A stretch of 5,180 nucleotides of DNA from assembly GCA_022701965.1 (NCBI GenBank), contig JAKONL010000011.1:1-5180 (forward strand), written 5' to 3'. Positions 1 to 5,180 of this stretch are shown here, one piece after another (position 1 is the first letter of the stretch; each line of letters opens with the position of its first letter). The notes below the pieces were generated by a model. It did not search any database and was not told the origin of the DNA. It saw only the letters and a program-made list of their open reading frames with translations. The DNA comes from Burkholderiaceae bacterium (lineage in GTDB: Bacteria > Pseudomonadota > Gammaproteobacteria > Burkholderiales > Burkholderiaceae). The position numbers were made by a program, and so were the translations under genes.

Positions 1-446
1 ATGTAGCCGGTGTCGTCGAGCAGGCCGTCCTGGCCGTGGCTGGTGTAGGGGTCGAGCGCCACGTCGGTCATGATGCCGAGCTCGGGGAAGCGCGACTTCA
101 GCGCCGCGACCACGCGCGGGATCAGGCCGTCGGGGTTGAAGGCCTCGTCGCCGTCGGGCGTCTTCAGGCCCGCGTCGATTACCGGGAACAGCGCCATCAC
201 CGGAATGCCCAGCTCCACGCATTGCTCGGCCACCGGCAGCAGCAGATCCAGGCTCAGGCGGTCGACGCCGGGCATCGACGACACGGCGTCGCGGCGGCCC
301 TCGCCTTCCTGCACGAACACCGGATAGATCAGGTCGTGGGCGGTGACGGCGTGCTCGCGCACCAGGTTGCGCGTGAAGGCGTCGCGGCGCAGGCGGCGCG
401 GGCGGCCGGCGGGAAACGGGGCGTGGAAGTTGGCATGGACGGTCAT
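1..446 (-). CDS. hemB: Porphobilinogen synthase (delta-aminolevulinic acid dehydratase), N-terminal part
   Basis: Cytosolic enzyme that condenses two 5-aminolevulinate molecules into porphobilinogen, the second committed step of tetrapyrrole synthesis. Reading the minus strand from the ATG at 446 gives 148 codons and then the window edge, so the C-terminal half, with the two catalytic lysines, is missing. Visible hallmarks are the Arg-rich N-terminal arm (RPRRLRRD, residues 15-22), LIYPVFVQEGEG (39-50), SSMPGVDRLS (56-65), LGIPVMALFPVI (79-90), NPDGLIPR (104-111) and DVALDPYTSHGQDG (128-141). The last motif has Asp132 and Asp140 where zinc enzymes have cysteines, which marks the Mg/alkali-metal-type enzyme. 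The start was chosen because it precedes the arm at the usual distance. There is no clear Shine-Dalgarno upstream. The gene is divergent from hemJ, another haem gene. The family assignment is essentially certain from sequence alone. Confidence 0.97.
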   Translation of the reverse strand, partial: MTVHANFHAPFPAGRPRRLRRDAFTRNLVREHAVTAHDLIYPVFVQEGEGRRDAVSSMPGVDRLSLDLLLPVAEQCVELGIPVMALFPVIDAGLKTPDGDEAFNPDGLIPRVVAALKSRFPELGIMTDVALDPYTSHGQDGLLDDTGY

Positions 447-479
447 GGTCCAAATTGTGTCCGATGCGCTCGCCGGCCG

Positions 480-506
480 ATTCGAGAAGGGTCGCACAAG
501 TGTCAA
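480..506 (-). promoter_or_regulatory. Candidate hemB promoter
   Basis: On the minus strand a perfect TTGACA lies at 501-506. It is followed 15 bp later by TCGAAT (480-485, 4 of 6 matches to TATAAT), which would start transcription near 472, about 26 nt before the hemB ATG. The spacer is shorter than the ideal 17 bp. An alternative -10-like hexamer, CACAAT at 454-459, sits 7 nt before the ATG and would give a leaderless message, but it has no -35 at the right distance. The perfect -35 supports a promoter here; the exact -10 is uncertain. Confidence 0.35.
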
Positions 507-524
507 GAAAATCTTGCGCAATGC

Positions 525-553
525 TTGATGCGCTCTTTCTCATTTGTTAAATT
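525..553 (+). promoter_or_regulatory. Sigma70-type promoter for the small RNA candidate
   Basis: TTGATG at 525-530 (4 of 6 matches to TTGACA) is separated by 17 bp from TAAATT at 548-553. The -10 is preceded by TGT at 545-547, an extended -10 element. A 16-bp register with TTAAAT at 547-552 is equally possible. The area is a local A/T-rich island in a very G/C-rich sequence. The predicted start is about 560, directly at the foot of the first hairpin of the candidate RNA. It points away from hemB, back to back with hemB's TTGACA. Confidence 0.5.
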
Positions 554-559
554 CCCTTT

Positions 560-662
560 CGGGCGGCTTGCCGCTCCCCGCTTTTCCTCCCTGAGCGGGT
601 GCCTGGATGTGTGACAGCAAAAAGGCTTCCCGGCCCGACGTGCATTCGTCGGGCTTTTTTTT
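560..662 (+). ncRNA. Candidate small regulatory RNA with anti-SD loop, ending in an intrinsic terminator
   Basis: This interval has the layout of a stand-alone sRNA: a promoter just upstream, three hairpins and a rho-independent terminator, with no open reading frame that fits. Hairpin 1 pairs 561-566 with 571-576 (one G-U) around a CUUG tetraloop closed by G-C. Hairpin 2 follows directly, pairing 577-583 with 593-599 around the 9-nt loop UUCCUCCCU, which is complementary to AGGAGG-type Shine-Dalgarno sequences. An apparently unpaired stretch (600-632) contains a run of five A. The terminator hairpin at 633-654 and eight T complete it. C-rich anti-SD loops are known from several proteobacterial sRNAs. 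I do not recognise this one as a named family. It could instead be a terminated leader (attenuator) of hemJ. Existence as a transcript is inferred; the structures are read directly. Confidence 0.5.
633..662 (+). terminator. Strong rho-independent terminator
   Basis: A perfect 8-bp stem, GCCCGACG (633-640) with CGTCGGGC (647-654), encloses the loop TGCATT and is followed at once by eight T (655-662). No annotated plus-strand protein gene lies upstream in the window: hemB is divergent. The terminator therefore must end some short transcript begun in the intergenic region, or act as an attenuator in front of hemJ, whose ATG is 41 bp further on. On the minus strand the pairing is not followed directly by T residues, so it works mainly in the plus direction. 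Confidence 0.85.
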
Positions 663-703
663 GCCTGTGCGCCGCGTCGTGCGTCGTCACTACACTGCCC
701 GCC

Positions 704-1132
704 ATGCTCTGGATCAAAGCCTTCCACATCGTCTTCATCGCCAGCTGGTTCGCCGGTCTGTTCTACCTGCCGCGCATCTTCGTGAATCTCGCGCAGGTCC
801 CGCCGGGCTCCGAGGCCGAACGGGCGCGGCTGCTGCTGATGGCGCGCAAGCTGCTGCGCTTCACCACGCTGCTGGCGATCCCGGCCGTGGTGCTGGGCGC
901 CTGGCTGTGGATGGGCTACGGCATCGGGCGCGGACCGGGCAACGGCTGGATGCATGCCAAGCTGGCGCTGGTGGTGGCCGCGATCGGCTACCACCATGGC
1001 TGCGGCGTGCTGCTGCGGCGCTTCGCGGCGGGCACGAACCGGCGCAGCCACGTCTGGTACCGCTGGTTCAACGAGGTGCCGGTGGTGCTGCTGACGGCGA
1101 TCGTGATCCTGGTGGTCGTCAAGCCCTTCTGA
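704..1132 (+). CDS. hemJ: Protoporphyrinogen IX oxidase, HemJ type (CopD/UPF0093-like membrane protein)
   Basis: Integral membrane protein of 142 residues, the usual size of HemJ, which oxidises protoporphyrinogen IX to protoporphyrin IX, the penultimate haem step, in bacteria lacking HemG/HemY. Four hydrophobic segments are visible at about 4-22, 53-71, 84-104 and 123-139. Family signatures are LWIKAFHIVFIASWFAGLFY at 2-21 with His8, LPRIFV at 22-27, His84-Ala-Lys86 before segment 3, YHH at 96-98, and RWFNEVPVVLL at 120-130 leading to the terminal VVKPF. His8 and Lys86 match the conserved His and Lys reported as functionally important in HemJ. Such proteins are often labelled only CopD family. 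No Shine-Dalgarno precedes the ATG. A -10-like TACACT lies 7 nt before it. The divergent neighbour hemB supports the haem role. The stop is 5 bp before the VanZ gene. Confidence 0.9.
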   Translation: MLWIKAFHIVFIASWFAGLFYLPRIFVNLAQVPPGSEAERARLLLMARKLLRFTTLLAIPAVVLGAWLWMGYGIGRGPGNGWMHAKLALVVAAIGYHHGCGVLLRRFAAGTNRRSHVWYRWFNEVPVVLLTAIVILVVVKPF

Positions 1133-1137
1133 GCGCC

Positions 1138-2265
1138 GTGGCGAGCGAGGCCCGGCCTGCACGCCACAAGTCGGCCGCGCTGCCGCTGACGCTGGCCTAC
1201 GCCGCGCTGATCTTCTACGCCAGCCTCTATCCGTTCTCCGACTGGCGCGACCAGGGCATCGCGCCCTGGGCCTACCTCACGGCGGCCTGGCCGAAGTACT
1301 GGACCGGGTTCGACTTCGGCGTCAACGTCGCCGGCTACGCGCCGCTGGGCTTCCTCGCGGCCCTGGCGGTGCTGCGCACACGGCCGGCCGTCGGCGTCTG
1401 GCAGGCGGTATGGCGCGCGACGCTGATTGGCTGCGCCATCTCCTTCGCGATGGAGACGCTGCAGAGCTATCTGCCGGTACGCATTCCCTCGAACGTCGAC
1501 CTGGCGCTGAACGCGACGGGCGCCTTCGTGGGCGCGGTCGCCGCGGCAGCGCTGGAGCGGCTCGGCGCCGTGGCGCGCTGGACGCGGGTGCGCGGGCACT
1601 GGTTCGTCGACGACGCACGCGGCGGCCTGGCGCTGCTGGCGCTGTGGCCGATCGCGCTGCTGTTTCCGGCGGCCGTCACCTTCGGGCTCGGGCAGGTATT
1701 CGAGCGGCTGGAGACCGCCATCGCGGAATGGTTGGCCGACACGCCGTTCCTGGAATGGCTGCCGCTGCGCGAATTCGAACTGGAGCCGCTGGTGCCGGGC
1801 ATCGAGATGCTCTGTGTGCTGCTGGGTGCGCTGGTGCCGTGCCTGCTGGCCTTCACGGTCGCGCGCTCGGTGGCGCAGCGTACGGTGCTGCTGGCGCTGA
1901 CGCTGGCGGTGGGCATCGCGGCCAGCGCGCTGTCGGCCGCGCTGAGCTATGGCCCGGAGCACGCCTGGGCCTGGCTCAGCATGCCGGTGCAGATCGGCAT
2001 CGCGGGGGCGGCGGTCGCCGGGCTGCTGCTGCTGGGCGCACGAAGGCGGCTGTGCGCGGCGCTGCTGCTGATGGCGCTGGTGGTGCACCTGAGCCTGCTG
2101 AACCAGGCGCCCGAGAGTGCGTATTTCGCGCAGACGCTGGCCAACTGGGAGCAGGGCAGGTTCATCCGCTTCCACGGGCTGGCCCAGTGGCTGGGCTGGC
2201 TCTGGCCGTTCGCGACGCTGGGCTACGTGCTCACGCGGATGTCGCGGCGCAGCGGCCAAACCTAG
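1138..2265 (+). CDS. VanZ-family multi-spanning membrane protein
   Basis: A 375-residue hydrophobic protein starting at GTG, 5 bp after the hemJ stop. The same frame is open further upstream, but that would overlap hemJ and the terminator, so GTG 1138 is preferred. The N-terminal VanZ domain covers roughly residues 15-140: ASLYPFSDW (28-36), FGVNVAGYAPLGF (60-72), FAMETLQSYLP (103-113) and RIPSNVDLALNATGAFVG (115-132), with the family's conserved N, PLG, E..Q and D..xN..G positions. About six further hydrophobic segments follow (about 163-186, 222-242, 246-270, 276-300, 303-321, 348-365), an extension beyond the short VanZ prototype. The prototype gives low-level teicoplanin resistance in enterococci. 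In Gram-negative bacteria the role is unknown and resistance should not be assumed. Proximity to the carboxypeptidase gene weakly suggests an envelope role. The stop codon TAG is part of the TAGAAT hexamer before the next gene. Confidence 0.85.
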   Translation: MASEARPARHKSAALPLTLAYAALIFYASLYPFSDWRDQGIAPWAYLTAAWPKYWTGFDFGVNVAGYAPLGFLAALAVLRTRPAVGVWQAVWRATLIGCAISFAMETLQSYLPVRIPSNVDLALNATGAFVGAVAAAALERLGAVARWTRVRGHWFVDDARGGLALLALWPIALLFPAAVTFGLGQVFERLETAIAEWLADTPFLEWLPLREFELEPLVPGIEMLCVLLGALVPCLLAFTVARSVAQRTVLLALTLAVGIAASALSAALSYGPEHAWAWLSMPVQIGIAGAAVAGLLLLGARRRLCAALLLMALVVHLSLLNQAPESAYFAQTLANWEQGRFIRFHGLAQWLGWLWPFATLGYVLTRMSRRSGQT

Positions 2266-2268
2266 AAT
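2263..2268 (+). promoter_or_regulatory. Candidate -10 hexamer for a leaderless ferredoxin transcript
   Basis: TAGAAT matches TATAAT at 5 of 6 positions and lies 6 bp before the ferredoxin ATG (2275), so a start there would fall on or beside the initiation codon. It overlaps the VanZ stop codon. No Shine-Dalgarno is visible before that ATG, and no good -35 lies 16-18 bp upstream, so the promoter call is tentative. Confidence 0.3.
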
Positions 2269-2274
2269 CGCCGG

Positions 2275-2649
2275 ATGTCCAGCCCCACCACGACCCCGAT
2301 CCCGACCGACCCGCAGGCGCAGCCCGGCTACTACGACCGTCACATCTTCTTCTGCCTCAACGAGCGCAAGAACGGCGAGGATTCCTGTGCCCGCCACGAT
2401 GCGCAGGACGGCTTCGACCGTTGCAAGTCGCGCGTCAAGGAGCTCGGGCTGGCGGGCGTCGGCAAGGTGCGCGTCAACAAGGCCGGCTGCCTGGGCCGCT
2501 GCGCGGGCGGTCCGGTGGCGGTGGTCTATCCGGAGGCCGTCTGGTACACCTTCGTCGACGCCTCCGACATCGACGAGATCGTCGAATCGCATCTTCGGGA
2601 CGGCCGGGTCGTCGAGCGGCTGGTGCTGCCGCCGGACGTCGGACGCTGA
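2275..2649 (+). CDS. Thioredoxin-like [2Fe-2S] ferredoxin
   Basis: A small soluble protein of 124 residues carrying the Cys pattern of thioredoxin-fold [2Fe-2S] ferredoxins (the Azotobacter/Aquifex type, also found as the NuoE C-terminal domain). Ligands are Cys27 and Cys38 (CLNERKNGEDSC), then Cys72 and Cys76 (KAGCLGRC), giving C-x10-C-x33-C-x3-C. A fifth cysteine, Cys50, is not in the expected ligand set. The opening HIFFCLNER (23-31), the central strand KVRVNKAGC (64-72) and GPVAVVYPEAVWYTFVD (79-95) are typical of stand-alone members near 100-125 residues. The first 18 or so residues are Pro/Thr-rich and probably disordered. It would shuttle single electrons in the cytosol; its partner cannot be told from the context. 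It starts 9 bp after the VanZ gene and ends 10 bp before the hydrolase gene. Confidence 0.9.
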   Translation: MSSPTTTPIPTDPQAQPGYYDRHIFFCLNERKNGEDSCARHDAQDGFDRCKSRVKELGLAGVGKVRVNKAGCLGRCAGGPVAVVYPEAVWYTFVDASDIDEIVESHLRDGRVVERLVLPPDVGR

Positions 2650-2659
2650 GGCGCGGCGC

Positions 2660-3292
2660 ATGAATTCGCAGACCGAGAAGCTCGTCCTCGACGGCGCCGC
2701 CGGAACCATCGAGGCGCTGCGCGACCGGCCGGCCGACGGAGTGCCGCCGCGCGGGGTGGCCGTGATCGCGCATCCGCATCCGCTGTTCGGCGGCACGATG
2801 GACAACAAGGTCGTCCAGACGCTGGCGCGCGCTTTCGTCGCCACCGGATGGACGGCGGTGCGCTTCAACTTCCGCGGCGTCGGCGCGAGCGCAGGCGTGC
2901 ACGACGAAGGGCGCGGCGAGACGGACGACTACCGAGCCGTGGTCGAGCAGGTGGCGCCTTCGGGCGAGCTGGCCGTCGCCGGCTTCTCGTTCGGCGCCTT
3001 CGTGGCGATCAACGCGCTGCAGGCCCTGTGGGGCGCGCGCGAAGTGACCGGCGTCGCGCTGATCGGCGCGAGCGTCGCCCGGGTGCGGCCGCCGCCGCTG
3101 CCCGAGGGCGCCGCCGAACGCACGCTCGTCGTGCACGGCGAGGCCGACGACACGGTGGCCCTCGCCGCCGTCATGGACTGGGCGCGGCCGCAGTCACTCC
3201 CTGTCACAGTCGTCCCCGGGGGCGGGCATTTCTTTCACGGACAATTGCCGCTCCTCAAGCAGCTCGTCGCCCGCCACCTCCGCGCGGGCTAG
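2660..3292 (+). CDS. Small alpha/beta-hydrolase (COG2945-like)
   Basis: A cytosolic 210-residue alpha/beta-hydrolase without a lid domain. Motifs in order are AHPHPLFGGTMDNKVV (37-52, oxyanion-hole region and family hallmark), RFNFRGVGASAG (68-79), the nucleophile elbow GFSFG with Ser110, the acid region HGEADDTV (159-166; Asp163 or Asp164) and the catalytic His190 in GGGHFFHG. The Ser-Asp-His triad is thus complete. Members of this group are predicted serine esterases or peptidases with no settled substrate, so none is assigned here. The ATG at 2660 has a GAGG Shine-Dalgarno at 2648-2651 that overlaps the stop of the ferredoxin gene, indicating translation coupled to the upstream gene. This is one of the few genes in the window with a recognisable ribosome binding site. 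Confidence 0.9.
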   Translation: MNSQTEKLVLDGAAGTIEALRDRPADGVPPRGVAVIAHPHPLFGGTMDNKVVQTLARAFVATGWTAVRFNFRGVGASAGVHDEGRGETDDYRAVVEQVAPSGELAVAGFSFGAFVAINALQALWGAREVTGVALIGASVARVRPPPLPEGAAERTLVVHGEADDTVALAAVMDWARPQSLPVTVVPGGGHFFHGQLPLLKQLVARHLRAG

Positions 3293-3320
3293 TCTTCCGG
3301 TCTTTCCAGCTTTCTTCTCC

Positions 3321-4490
3321 ATGAACCGTTTTTCCGTTGCGCTCCGTGCGCTGATGGCGGCTGCAGCCGCGTCGATGTGCATGTTCGCCGCCGCGCAGGT
3401 GCCGACGCCTCCCGAGGTCGCGGCGCGCAGCTATCTGCTGCTCGACATCACGGCCAACCAGATGCTGGCGCAGAAGGACATCGACAGTCCCGTGGAACAG
3501 GCATCGCTGACCAAGCTGATGTCGGCCTATATCGTGTTCGACGCGCTCAAGTCGAAGAAGCTCACGCTCACTCAGACGCTGCCGGTGAGCATCCGCGCCT
3601 GGAAGATGCCGGGCTCGCGCATGTTCGTCGACCCGAAGATGCAGGTGCCGGTCGACGATCTGATCAAGGGAATGATCGTGCAGTCGGGCAACGACGCCAC
3701 CAACGTGCTGGCCGAGGGCGTGGGCGGGACCGTCGAGCATTTCGTCGAGCTCATGAACGAGCAGGCCAGGGCGCTCGGCATGAAGGGCACCACGTACAAG
3801 AACGTCGAGGGCCTCACCGCGCCCGGTCACACCACGACCGCGCGCGACCTGAGCATCGTCGCGACCCGCCTGATGCGCGACTTTCCCGAGTACATGCACT
3901 ACTACTCGATCAAGAAATACCGCTATCCGGGCACCCCGTCGACGAACGACACCAATCGCAACCTGCTGCTGTTCCGCGACCCGACGGTCGACGGCCTGAA
4001 GACCGGCCACACCGAGGCCGCCGGCTACTGCATGGTGGTCACCGCCAAGCGCGACTTCCCCAACATCGGCGGCGGACGCCGCCTGCTGACGATCGTGCTG
4101 GGCGCATCGAGCGAGAACGCGCGCGCCAACGAATCGCAGAAGCTGCTCAACTGGGGCTATACCGCCTACGACGCGGTGCGCCTGTTCGAGGCCAACCAGC
4201 CGGCCGCGACGCCGCAGGTCTGGAAGGGCAAGGCCGACACGCTCAAGCTGGGTCGTCCCGAAGCCATCGTGGTCTCGGTGCCGGCGGGCACGGCGTCCAA
4301 GATCAAGACGCAGATCGCGCGGCCCGAGCCGCTGGTGGCACCGTTCACGAAGAACCAGCCCGTCGGCACGCTCAAGGTGATGCTGGGCGAGGAGCCCGTC
4401 ACGGAGGTGCAGCTGGTCGCGCTCGAGAGCGTCGAGCAGGCGGGCATCCTGGGCCGCGCCTGGGATGCGGTGCGGCTCTGGATCAAGTAG
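3321..4490 (+). CDS. dacC: Serine-type D-alanyl-D-alanine carboxypeptidase (PBP5/6 family)
   Basis: A low-molecular-weight penicillin-binding protein of 389 residues, which trims the terminal D-Ala from peptidoglycan pentapeptides in the periplasm. The N-terminus is a signal peptide: Arg3 and Arg9, a hydrophobic core at 10-24 and probable cleavage after AAA at 25. The transpeptidase domain has all three active-site motifs: Ser62-Leu-Thr-Lys65, Ser122-Gly-Asn124 and Lys227-Thr-Gly229. The PBP5 C-terminal beta domain follows (about 285-370), and the last 17 residues ([17 protein letters not shown]) fit the amphipathic membrane-anchoring helix. Length and architecture match E. coli DacA/DacC; paralogue identity (dacA or dacC) is not resolvable, and dacC is the name commonly used in Burkholderiales. 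The 28-bp gap after the hydrolase gene is pyrimidine-rich and has no Shine-Dalgarno. I see no convincing terminator after the gene. Confidence 0.95.
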
Positions 4491-4493
4491 GAC

Positions 4494-4512
4494 CAGGCCT
4501 TTCCAGGGCCTG
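4494..4512. repeat. Inverted repeat between dacC and the rpsL promoter
   Basis: CAGGCC (4494-4499) and GGCCTG (4507-4512) form a perfect 6-bp inverted repeat with a 7-nt centre, beginning 4 bp after the dacC stop. Its right arm covers the TG of the extended -10 of the rpsL promoter. It may be a weak transcript end for dacC, although no T-tract follows directly, or a protein-binding operator. Only the symmetry is certain. Confidence 0.4.
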
Positions 4513-4519
4513 CTATACT
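4511..4519 (+). promoter_or_regulatory. Extended -10 promoter of the str operon (rpsL-rpsG)
   Basis: TGC followed by TATACT (4514-4519, 5 of 6 matches to TATAAT) forms an extended -10 element. No good -35 is found 16-18 bp upstream, which is tolerated by extended -10 promoters. Transcription would start near 4526 and give a leader of roughly 100 nt before rpsL. The location, immediately before a ribosomal protein operon, fits. Confidence 0.6.
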
Positions 4520-4525
4520 CGCGGG

Positions 4526-4606
4526 CTTTTCGGGAAAAAACCGAAGGGTTTCACGTTTTTGTCATTTCCCGGTTCCTCGCGTCACGACGAGGGCTCATCG
4601 CCGGGA
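4526..4606 (+). promoter_or_regulatory. Structured 5' leader of rpsL
   Basis: Two hairpins can be drawn in the leader. The first pairs 4526-4533 with 4541-4548 (8 bp, two G-U) around an A-rich loop; a competing pairing, AAACC (4538-4542) with GGTTT (4547-4551), would exclude it. The second has an outer perfect 6-bp stem, TCCCGG (4567-4572) with CCGGGA (4601-4606), enclosing an inner stem, CCTCG (4575-4579) with CGAGG (4588-4592). The mutually exclusive first-hairpin pairings and the T-run at 4556-4560 suggest possible attenuation. The regulatory role is inferred. Confidence 0.4.
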
Positions 4607-4627
4607 TGTTTTGGGATTCATTCATTC

Positions 4628-5005
4628 ATGCCAACCATCAATCAGCTGGTGCGTCAGGGTCGAACGGTCGAGACGATCAATTCGAAGAGCCATGCCATGC
4701 AGAACTCGCCGCAGCGTCGCGGTGTCTGCACCCGGGTCTACACCACGACCCCCAAGAAGCCGAATTCGGCGCTTCGCAAGGTTGCCAAGGTCCGCCTGAC
4801 CAACGGCTTCGAAGTCATCTCCTACATCGGCGGCGAAGGCCACAACCTGCAGGAACACAGCGTCGTGCTGGTTCGTGGTGGTCGTGTCAAGGACTTGCCG
4901 GGTGTGCGCTATCACATCGTGCGCGGCTCGCTCGACCTGCAAGGCGTGAAAGACCGCAAGCAGTCGCGTTCCAAGTACGGCGCGAAGCGTCCCAAGAAGG
5001 CCTAA
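4628..5005 (+). CDS. rpsL: 30S ribosomal protein S12
   Basis: Complete S12 of 125 residues, one more than E. coli. It sits at the decoding centre of the small subunit and helps set translational accuracy. Near-universal motifs are [20 protein letters not shown] (31-50), [20 protein letters not shown] (56-75), [20 protein letters not shown] (76-95) and [13 protein letters not shown] (106-118). Lys43 and Lys88, where substitutions cause streptomycin resistance, are both the ancestral lysines, with Asp89 and Pro91 also standard, so this allele reads as drug-sensitive and wild type. The N-terminal stretch (11-29) differs from E. coli, as usual in betaproteobacteria. The start is fixed by [12 protein letters not shown]. 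Three ATTC repeats directly precede the ATG, and the only purine-rich candidate ribosome binding site, GGGA at 4613-4616, is 11 nt away. Confidence 0.99.
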
Positions 5006-5029
5006 GACCTTCTGTATTCGTTCAGCGGT

Positions 5030-5128
5030 GTTCGGCGTGCCTTGGCGGGTGCTCCGGACGAAGTGACCCGATCCTGGGTCGAGTAAGTGAGAGTCGATGT
5101 CGGCTCTCGCGGTGCCCGAAGCGGCGCC
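5030..5128 (+). promoter_or_regulatory. Hairpin-rich rpsL-rpsG spacer, probable S7 autoregulatory site
   Basis: The spacer between the S12 and S7 genes is 147 nt long and contains successive potential hairpins: 5030-5035 with 5054-5059; GACCC 5065-5069 with GGGTC 5076-5080; a 10-bp stem 5087-5096 with 5101-5110 around loop AUGU; and, directly abutting it, 5111-5116 with 5123-5128 around CGAAGC. None has a T-tract, so they are not terminators. In E. coli the S7 protein represses its operon by binding the rpsL-rpsG intercistronic RNA, and this is the equivalent position. Equivalence of binding here is inferred. Confidence 0.5.
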
Positions 5129-5152
5129 AACTGAAGCAAAGAGGTTAGTAAC

Positions 5153-5180
5153 ATGCCACGTCGTCGCGAAGTCCCCAAAC
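5153..5180 (+). CDS. rpsG: 30S ribosomal protein S7, N-terminal start
   Basis: The ATG at 5153 opens nine codons, MPRRREVPK, before the window ends. This matches the betaproteobacterial S7 N-terminus, and the gene follows rpsL in the conserved str operon order. A good Shine-Dalgarno, AGAGG (5140-5144), sits 8 nt upstream. S7 initiates assembly of the 30S head by binding 16S rRNA and is the usual autoregulator of this operon. The identification rests on the short peptide plus gene order. Confidence 0.93.

Follow-up and report, generated by a model that had tools for sequence, protein, structure and literature searches.

The region between hemB and a hemJ-like gene in a Burkholderiaceae bacterium raised the question of whether it holds an RNA gene of its own, and if so which one. 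The window, i.e., the whole stretch of DNA that was analyzed, comprises 5,180 nt (GCA_022701965.1, contig JAKONL010000011.1, positions 1 to 5,180). An original prediction, made from the letters of the window, had described in this region a free-standing sRNA gene with an anti-Shine-Dalgarno (SD) loop that might be linked to haem supply by its position. It had recognized no named family and had proposed an Rfam search and an alignment of the intergenic region with a covariation analysis as checks.

Identity of the RNA and its setting

The window represents Comamonadaceae DNA near Variovorax, as the N-terminal part of its HemB was 88–93% identical to that of the ten top-ranked loci, all of which were from Variovorax. 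The gene order is hemB (minus strand), the sRNA region 525–662 (plus strand), the hemJ-like gene, and genes for a VanZ-like protein, a (2Fe-2S) ferredoxin-like protein, an alpha/beta hydrolase, and a D-Ala-D-Ala carboxypeptidase, followed by rpsL. The coordinates of the features discussed here are listed in Table 1. With the NCBIfam HemJ model TIGR00701, the hemJ-like gene product reached 108.8 bits, which is under the cut-off of 138.05. By eye, a TACACT at window positions 691–704 ends 7 nt 5′ of the hemJ ATG and a clear SD sequence was not seen; judged from this TACACT, the hemJ mRNA is possibly leaderless and transcribed from its own promoter.

Table 1. Features of the hemB–hemJ region, with positions in the window.
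Feature	Position	Strand	Basis or remark
hemB, 5′ part (porphobilinogen synthase)	3..446	-	Pfam ALAD, E 7.7e-39; start at 446; divergent from the sRNA
-35 element TTGATG	525..530	+	read from the sequence; at least 4/6 matches at 16–18 nt in 66/72 sequences
extended -10 element TGT-TAAATT, 17-nt spacer	545..553	+	TGnTARATT in 69/72 sequences
predicted anti-hemB sRNA, ~103 nt	560..662	+	RF02837 match 575–662; B. cenocepacia homolog mapped at 105 nt
5′ hairpin GGGCGG-CUUG-CCGCUC, CUUG tetraloop	561..576	+	outside the Rfam model; covariation
second hairpin CCCGCUU/GAGCGGG, C-rich anti-SD-like loop UUCCUCCCU at 584–592	577..599	+	fold and pair counts
short third stem, GCCU 601–604/AGGC 623–626, unpaired GAUGUGUGACAGCAAA-type loop	601..626	+	alignments, pair counts
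Rho-independent terminator, 8 perfect pairs 633–640/647–654, eight T 655–662	633..662	+	sequence, terminator scan
hemJ-like gene, downstream of the sRNA	704..1132	+	Pfam UPF0093, E 1.5e-42

Comparison of the window with all Rfam families assigned positions 575–662 of the plus strand to RF02837, anti-hemB, with 65.7 bits (cut-off 49.5; E 3.2e-14). The match spanned the full model (positions 1–81), and RF02837 was the only Rfam family over its cut-off in the window. The proposed Rfam search thus gave a clear answer. The original prediction had not recognized a named family, but one exists: the anti-hemB family is already catalogued and the window RNA is not a new family. An assignment to the double-hairpin family RF02278 (toxic small RNA; ncS27) in place of anti-hemB has next to no chance of being right. 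Both RNAs have a common design with a C/U-rich loop and a terminator and the window gives a weak match, but its 21.2 bits are far under the 50-bit cut-off and compare with 65.7 bits for anti-hemB, and the site beside hemB is that of anti-hemB homologs. RF02869 (ncS025), which resembles the window RNA in its loop hairpin and terminator, scored 23.6 bits, under its cut-off of 46 bits, and membership in either family was therefore rejected. As far as the accessible parts of the reports describe them, the RF02278 (Betaproteobacteria toxic sRNA) members ncS03, ncS05, ncS27, and ncS62 and their relative S17 of Bordetella share with the window RNA a C/U-rich unpaired region facing the SD sequence and an intrinsic terminator; S17 adjoins other genes.

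The best documented relative is ncS04, the anti-hemB RNA of B. cenocepacia. According to the accessible text of the respective papers, it is encoded on the plus strand of replicon 1 (292949–293053) and is 105 nt long, with the 3′ end determined by RACE and a Northern panel (PMC5688073). Hfq binding of ncS04 is cited there, and it was reported to co-purify with Hfq and to lie between BCAL0264 and BCAL0265 in the arrangement <- -> <- (PMC4603805). Anti-hemB is also listed for B. pseudomallei in the accessible part of another study (PMC3521395). The window RNA is like RF02837 and ncS04 in its full match to the 81-position model, its divergence from hemB, and its length (103 nt predicted, 105 nt mapped). 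The start of its transcript is inferred near position 560. It differs from ncS04 in having hemJ downstream on the same strand, whereas ncS04 has a convergent gene. Judged from its sequence, the segment 560–662 is a real sRNA and a member of the anti-hemB family RF02837 of the Comamonadaceae type with a probability of about 0.93.

Promoter, architecture, and covariation

Analysis of the window sequence by itself gave limited support for an RNA gene. Folding of positions 560–670 gave a modest z-score (-1.96), 8 of 200 shuffled sequences were equally or more stable, and a generic promoter scan listed no site anywhere in the window. A terminator scan found 633–662 among seven sites in the window (shuffled sequences: mean 2.9, sd 2.0). 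Because the fold z-score was modest and the promoter scan empty, conservation was taken as the decisive evidence.

The promoter was examined in 72 sequences, consisting of the window and 71 loci chosen by the loop motif. TGnTARATT was present upstream in 69 of them compared to 0.4% of shuffled segments, and 66 combined it with a -35 element having at least four of six matches at a distance of 16–18 nt. The extended -10 element with a -35 element at a spacing of 17 nt that had been read from the window is therefore not only present at 525–553 but also conserved. The majority base had a mean share of 0.82 at the -10 region, and this share reached 0.85 for the 5′ hairpin and 0.90 for the region of the third stem. 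For comparison, the upstream flank gave 0.37 (72 sequences) and the bases directly 3′ of the terminator gave 0.44 (66 sequences). Promoter and RNA thus form an island of conservation.

The CUUG hairpin, the adjoining loop hairpin, and the 8-bp terminator followed by eight T were all found where the original prediction had placed them; the stem GCCU/AGGC at 601–626 was missing from that description. For the analysis of covariation, 107 alignment rows were chosen by the motif CTCC..TGAGCGGG from 148 loci, with repeats dropped. Nineteen of the 148 loci lacked this motif, and the ten of these that were read all carried a swapped stem, GAGCAGG. Seventy-three rows remained after thinning at 90% identity, and the main pair counts were made with the 45 sequences that comprise all thinned rows outside the order-level set. 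Over all stems of these 45 sequences, 94.0% of the cells paired, compared to 86.4% in shuffled sequences, and the covariation score was 0.270 versus 0.140 and dropped sharply when the partners were slid against each other.

In the 5′ hairpin taken by itself, 90.6% of the cells were paired (78.5% in shuffles), 32 cells showed a double change (8.4 in shuffles), and the covariation score was 0.523 (0.294 in shuffles). All six pairs showed a double change, which was reached in 3 of 500 shuffles. The terminator had double changes in six of its eight pairs, with 89.4% of the cells paired. Both elements are thus supported by covariation, with the qualification that kinship among the sequences inflates such counts. 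In these alignments the 5′ hairpin and the terminator covary and the loop is conserved; the stem of the loop hairpin hardly varies. As the rows were chosen by motif, the invariance of loop and stem in these alignments is in part an effect of selection.

Alignment A1 contained 34 of the 45 non-order rows and gave higher values than all 45, with 100% of the 5′-hairpin cells being paired. These figures are flattering, since seven of the 11 rows omitted by hand lack the hairpin, and therefore the figures for all 45 sequences serve as the main evidence. Alignment A2 contained 27 of the 28 order rows, and with it RNAalifold did not recover the 5′ hairpin. By eye, MAFFT leaves the arms of this hairpin unaligned in A2, and for this reason a test of each sequence was used. 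A hairpin of at least five pairs was found at its place in 97 of 108 sequences, the window included, whereas 15.5 were expected from mononucleotide shuffles. The 11 sequences lacking a five-pair hairpin at the tested offsets were those of L074, L076, L089, L090, L093, L108, L119, L120, L124, and L144 and one copy of L095. This covarying hairpin lies outside the RF02837 model, though ncS04, at 105 nt, is long enough to include such a hairpin.

Distribution and neighboring genes

All eight test genomes had an RF02837 match over the cut-off, and none of the 14 control genomes did; three of the controls had weak matches below the cut-off. In the family group, 312 of 397 genomes contained a match over the cut-off (333 at an E-value up to 0.001) and 85 did not; in the order group the numbers were 252 of 399 (305 at an E-value up to 0.001) and 147, where stricter search filters in both group-wide searches can miss weak matches. 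Two genomes, G086 and G288, had six and nine matches, respectively, at an E-value up to 0.001, and at L095 two anti-hemB-like copies stand in tandem about 180 bp apart (about 1305–1607). A collection of plasmids contained no match to the RNA.

Among 80 fetched hemB loci, which were found only via HemB, the RNA was located divergently upstream of hemB in 75. The strict motif identified 71 and a looser motif 74 of these, to which L006 was added by Rfam (51.0 bits). The RNA was not detected at L038, L052, and L079. At L053 and L061 (2439–2515), a group II intron (RF00029, 58.4 bits) has its 3′ end at the hemB start, between hemB and the usual site of the sRNA; the genome of L061 does contain the anti-hemB RNA, although its hemB locus is without it.

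A regulatory role in cis was considered, with the RNA being a leader or attenuator of hemJ whose terminator at 633–662 stops or permits read-through in response to haem. The terminator ends 41 nt 5′ of the hemJ start codon on the same strand, and in the 74 hemB-anchored motif loci, all of which had hemB divergently upstream, hemJ followed on the same strand in 71. Also in sampled family loci, hemB and hemJ were each present in 18 of 20 (among the matches listed). Against this, 29 of the 30 best-scoring order-level loci had hemB divergent, 27 had engB downstream in the opposite orientation, and hemJ was found in none, so that the RNA structure is kept in the absence of hemJ, and ncS04 and its neighbors stand in the order <- -> <- in the part of the report accessible to us. 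The RNA is not explained by a leader role for hemJ, since one group has hemJ downstream in the same orientation and the other has engB there in the opposite orientation; on these grounds this role was rejected as very improbable.

The free-standing anti-hemB RNA was accompanied by hemB in further samples as well. In order loci sampled among the matches listed, hemB was divergent in 14 of 20, engB was convergent downstream in 14, and engB was upstream on the same strand in four. The best 30 family-group loci comprised 18 with hemB and hemJ, one odd locus with hemB downstream on the same strand, and 11 with neither. The latter (L094, L095, L098, L100, L101, L104, L106, and L111–L114) had no hemB, hemJ, or engB within 1.5 kb; by eye, the upstream ORF at L098 resembles an RNA methyltransferase. 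The position divergently upstream of hemB, which is also that of the window RNA, is thus usual but not universal in the family, and hemB is a widely shared neighbor while hemJ is lineage-specific. As regards the suggested link to haem, the hemB side of the setting is widely shared, the hemJ side is restricted to a lineage, and ncS04 showed no response to low iron. In the accessible text on ncS04, Table 2 lists no significant change by qPCR in any of seven conditions, namely biofilm, stationary phase, starvation, glucose, osmotic stress, low pH, and low iron (PMC5688073). A role of the anti-hemB RNA in haem metabolism rests on position only and is not established.

The C-rich loop, the third stem-loop, and a proposed mode of action

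CCUCC is the core of the anti-SD sequence. The window RNA carries the CCUCCCU loop within a G+C-rich stem that is typical of the family, and the predicted fold leaves UUCCUCCCU unpaired. The loop (CCUCCCUGAGC) was unchanged in 40 of 40 sampled matches, whereas the stem was swapped from CCCGC/GCGGG to CCUGC/GCAGG in 11 of the 37 that could be parsed. These 40 loci were selected manually at approximate intervals from the order and family groups, below the best 30 and among the matches listed; some bias persists in the count, because the sample consists of covariance-model matches from the better half. A loop that stays constant while its stem changes points to the loop sequence as the functional part. 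Together with the RF02837 match and the conserved promoter and stems, it gives good support to the prediction of a free-standing sRNA gene in which the anti-SD-like loop lies exposed.

Provided that the RNA is real, Hfq-assisted blocking of SD sequences in trans is probably its mode of action. A roughly 103-nt RNA with four stem-loops, ending at the intrinsic terminator, would be made from the gene's own extended -10 promoter of the sigma-70 type. Hfq would stabilize this RNA via the U tail, and the loop would pair with the SD regions of several mRNAs and thereby lower their translation. As a CCUCC loop fits any purine-rich SD sequence, complementarity alone proves little, and the preference for this mode comes from analogy: UC-rich regions of the NmsR RNAs repress at the SD sequence and S17 represses one tested gene. 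The accessible text on the Neisseria NmsR sibling sRNAs describes three stem-loops and UC-rich anti-SD regions that repress mRNAs of the TCA cycle at the SD (PMC5362039); NmsR has two such regions and the window RNA one, and the two are likened by description, not by sequence. For Bordetella S17, the accessible part of the report describes a C/U-rich anti-SD region and direct repression of one reporter-tested target.

The loop of a real RNA might also have a protein or the ribosome as its partner in place of the SD sites of mRNAs, making the RNA a sponge or titrator. An invariant loop with a varying closing stem fits any fixed partner, and the accessible parts of the family's papers give no mRNA target of anti-hemB. 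We consider this unlikely, since ncS04 was described as co-purifying with Hfq and the similar sRNAs with C/U-rich regions as repressing mRNAs at the ribosome binding site, as far as these sources were accessible.

Besides the putative SD-blocking loop, the third stem-loop in the branch of the window has a conserved unpaired segment of the GUGUGACAGCAAA or GUGAUGACAGC type, i.e., a UGUGUGACAGCAAA-type element, whereas the RF02837 consensus has ucguuuuuacga at this place. Of the 74 hemB-anchored loci, 67 had UGACA within 45 nt 3′ of the loop hairpin, as did 5 of 8 test-genome loci. Within the same distance it occurred in 23 of the 30 best and 19 of the 20 sampled family loci, compared to 0 of the 30 best and 1 of the 20 sampled order loci (samples among the matches listed). 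A small protein starting with the ATG at 607 was judged unlikely from the sequences, because the stretch that separates the third stem from the terminator changes length in the alignments by numbers that are not multiples of three and because the segment is restricted to one branch. A C-rich terminator loop was present in order-level members (16 of the best 30; 9 of 20 sampled among the matches listed), and many of those among L119–L168 have a CUCCCCUUU-like terminator loop, which by its sequence is a possible second C-rich pairing site. The UGUGUGACAGCAAA-type segment and the C-rich terminator loops of the order-level members may be extra sites for pairing or for Hfq. More specifically, though rather speculatively, the Comamonadaceae-type branch might have gained a second functional module, with the UGUGUGACAGCAAA-type segment serving either as a second seed for mRNAs or as a site of the A-rich (ARN) kind for the distal face of Hfq.

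In summary, a catalogued sRNA was correctly rediscovered from raw sequence alone. The analysis adds the following: anti-hemB RNAs are common across the group; conservation extends past the Rfam model to the promoter and the 5′ hairpin; the lasting neighbor is hemB and not hemJ; and one branch has a further conserved unpaired element, which is the least familiar feature of the window RNA. The literature searched, from which subscription papers were mostly absent, contained no functional study of the family, and anti-hemB looks like a widespread sRNA awaiting its first target study. If the second module is real, a near-ubiquitous regulator of this group would act through two heads in one lineage and through one elsewhere.
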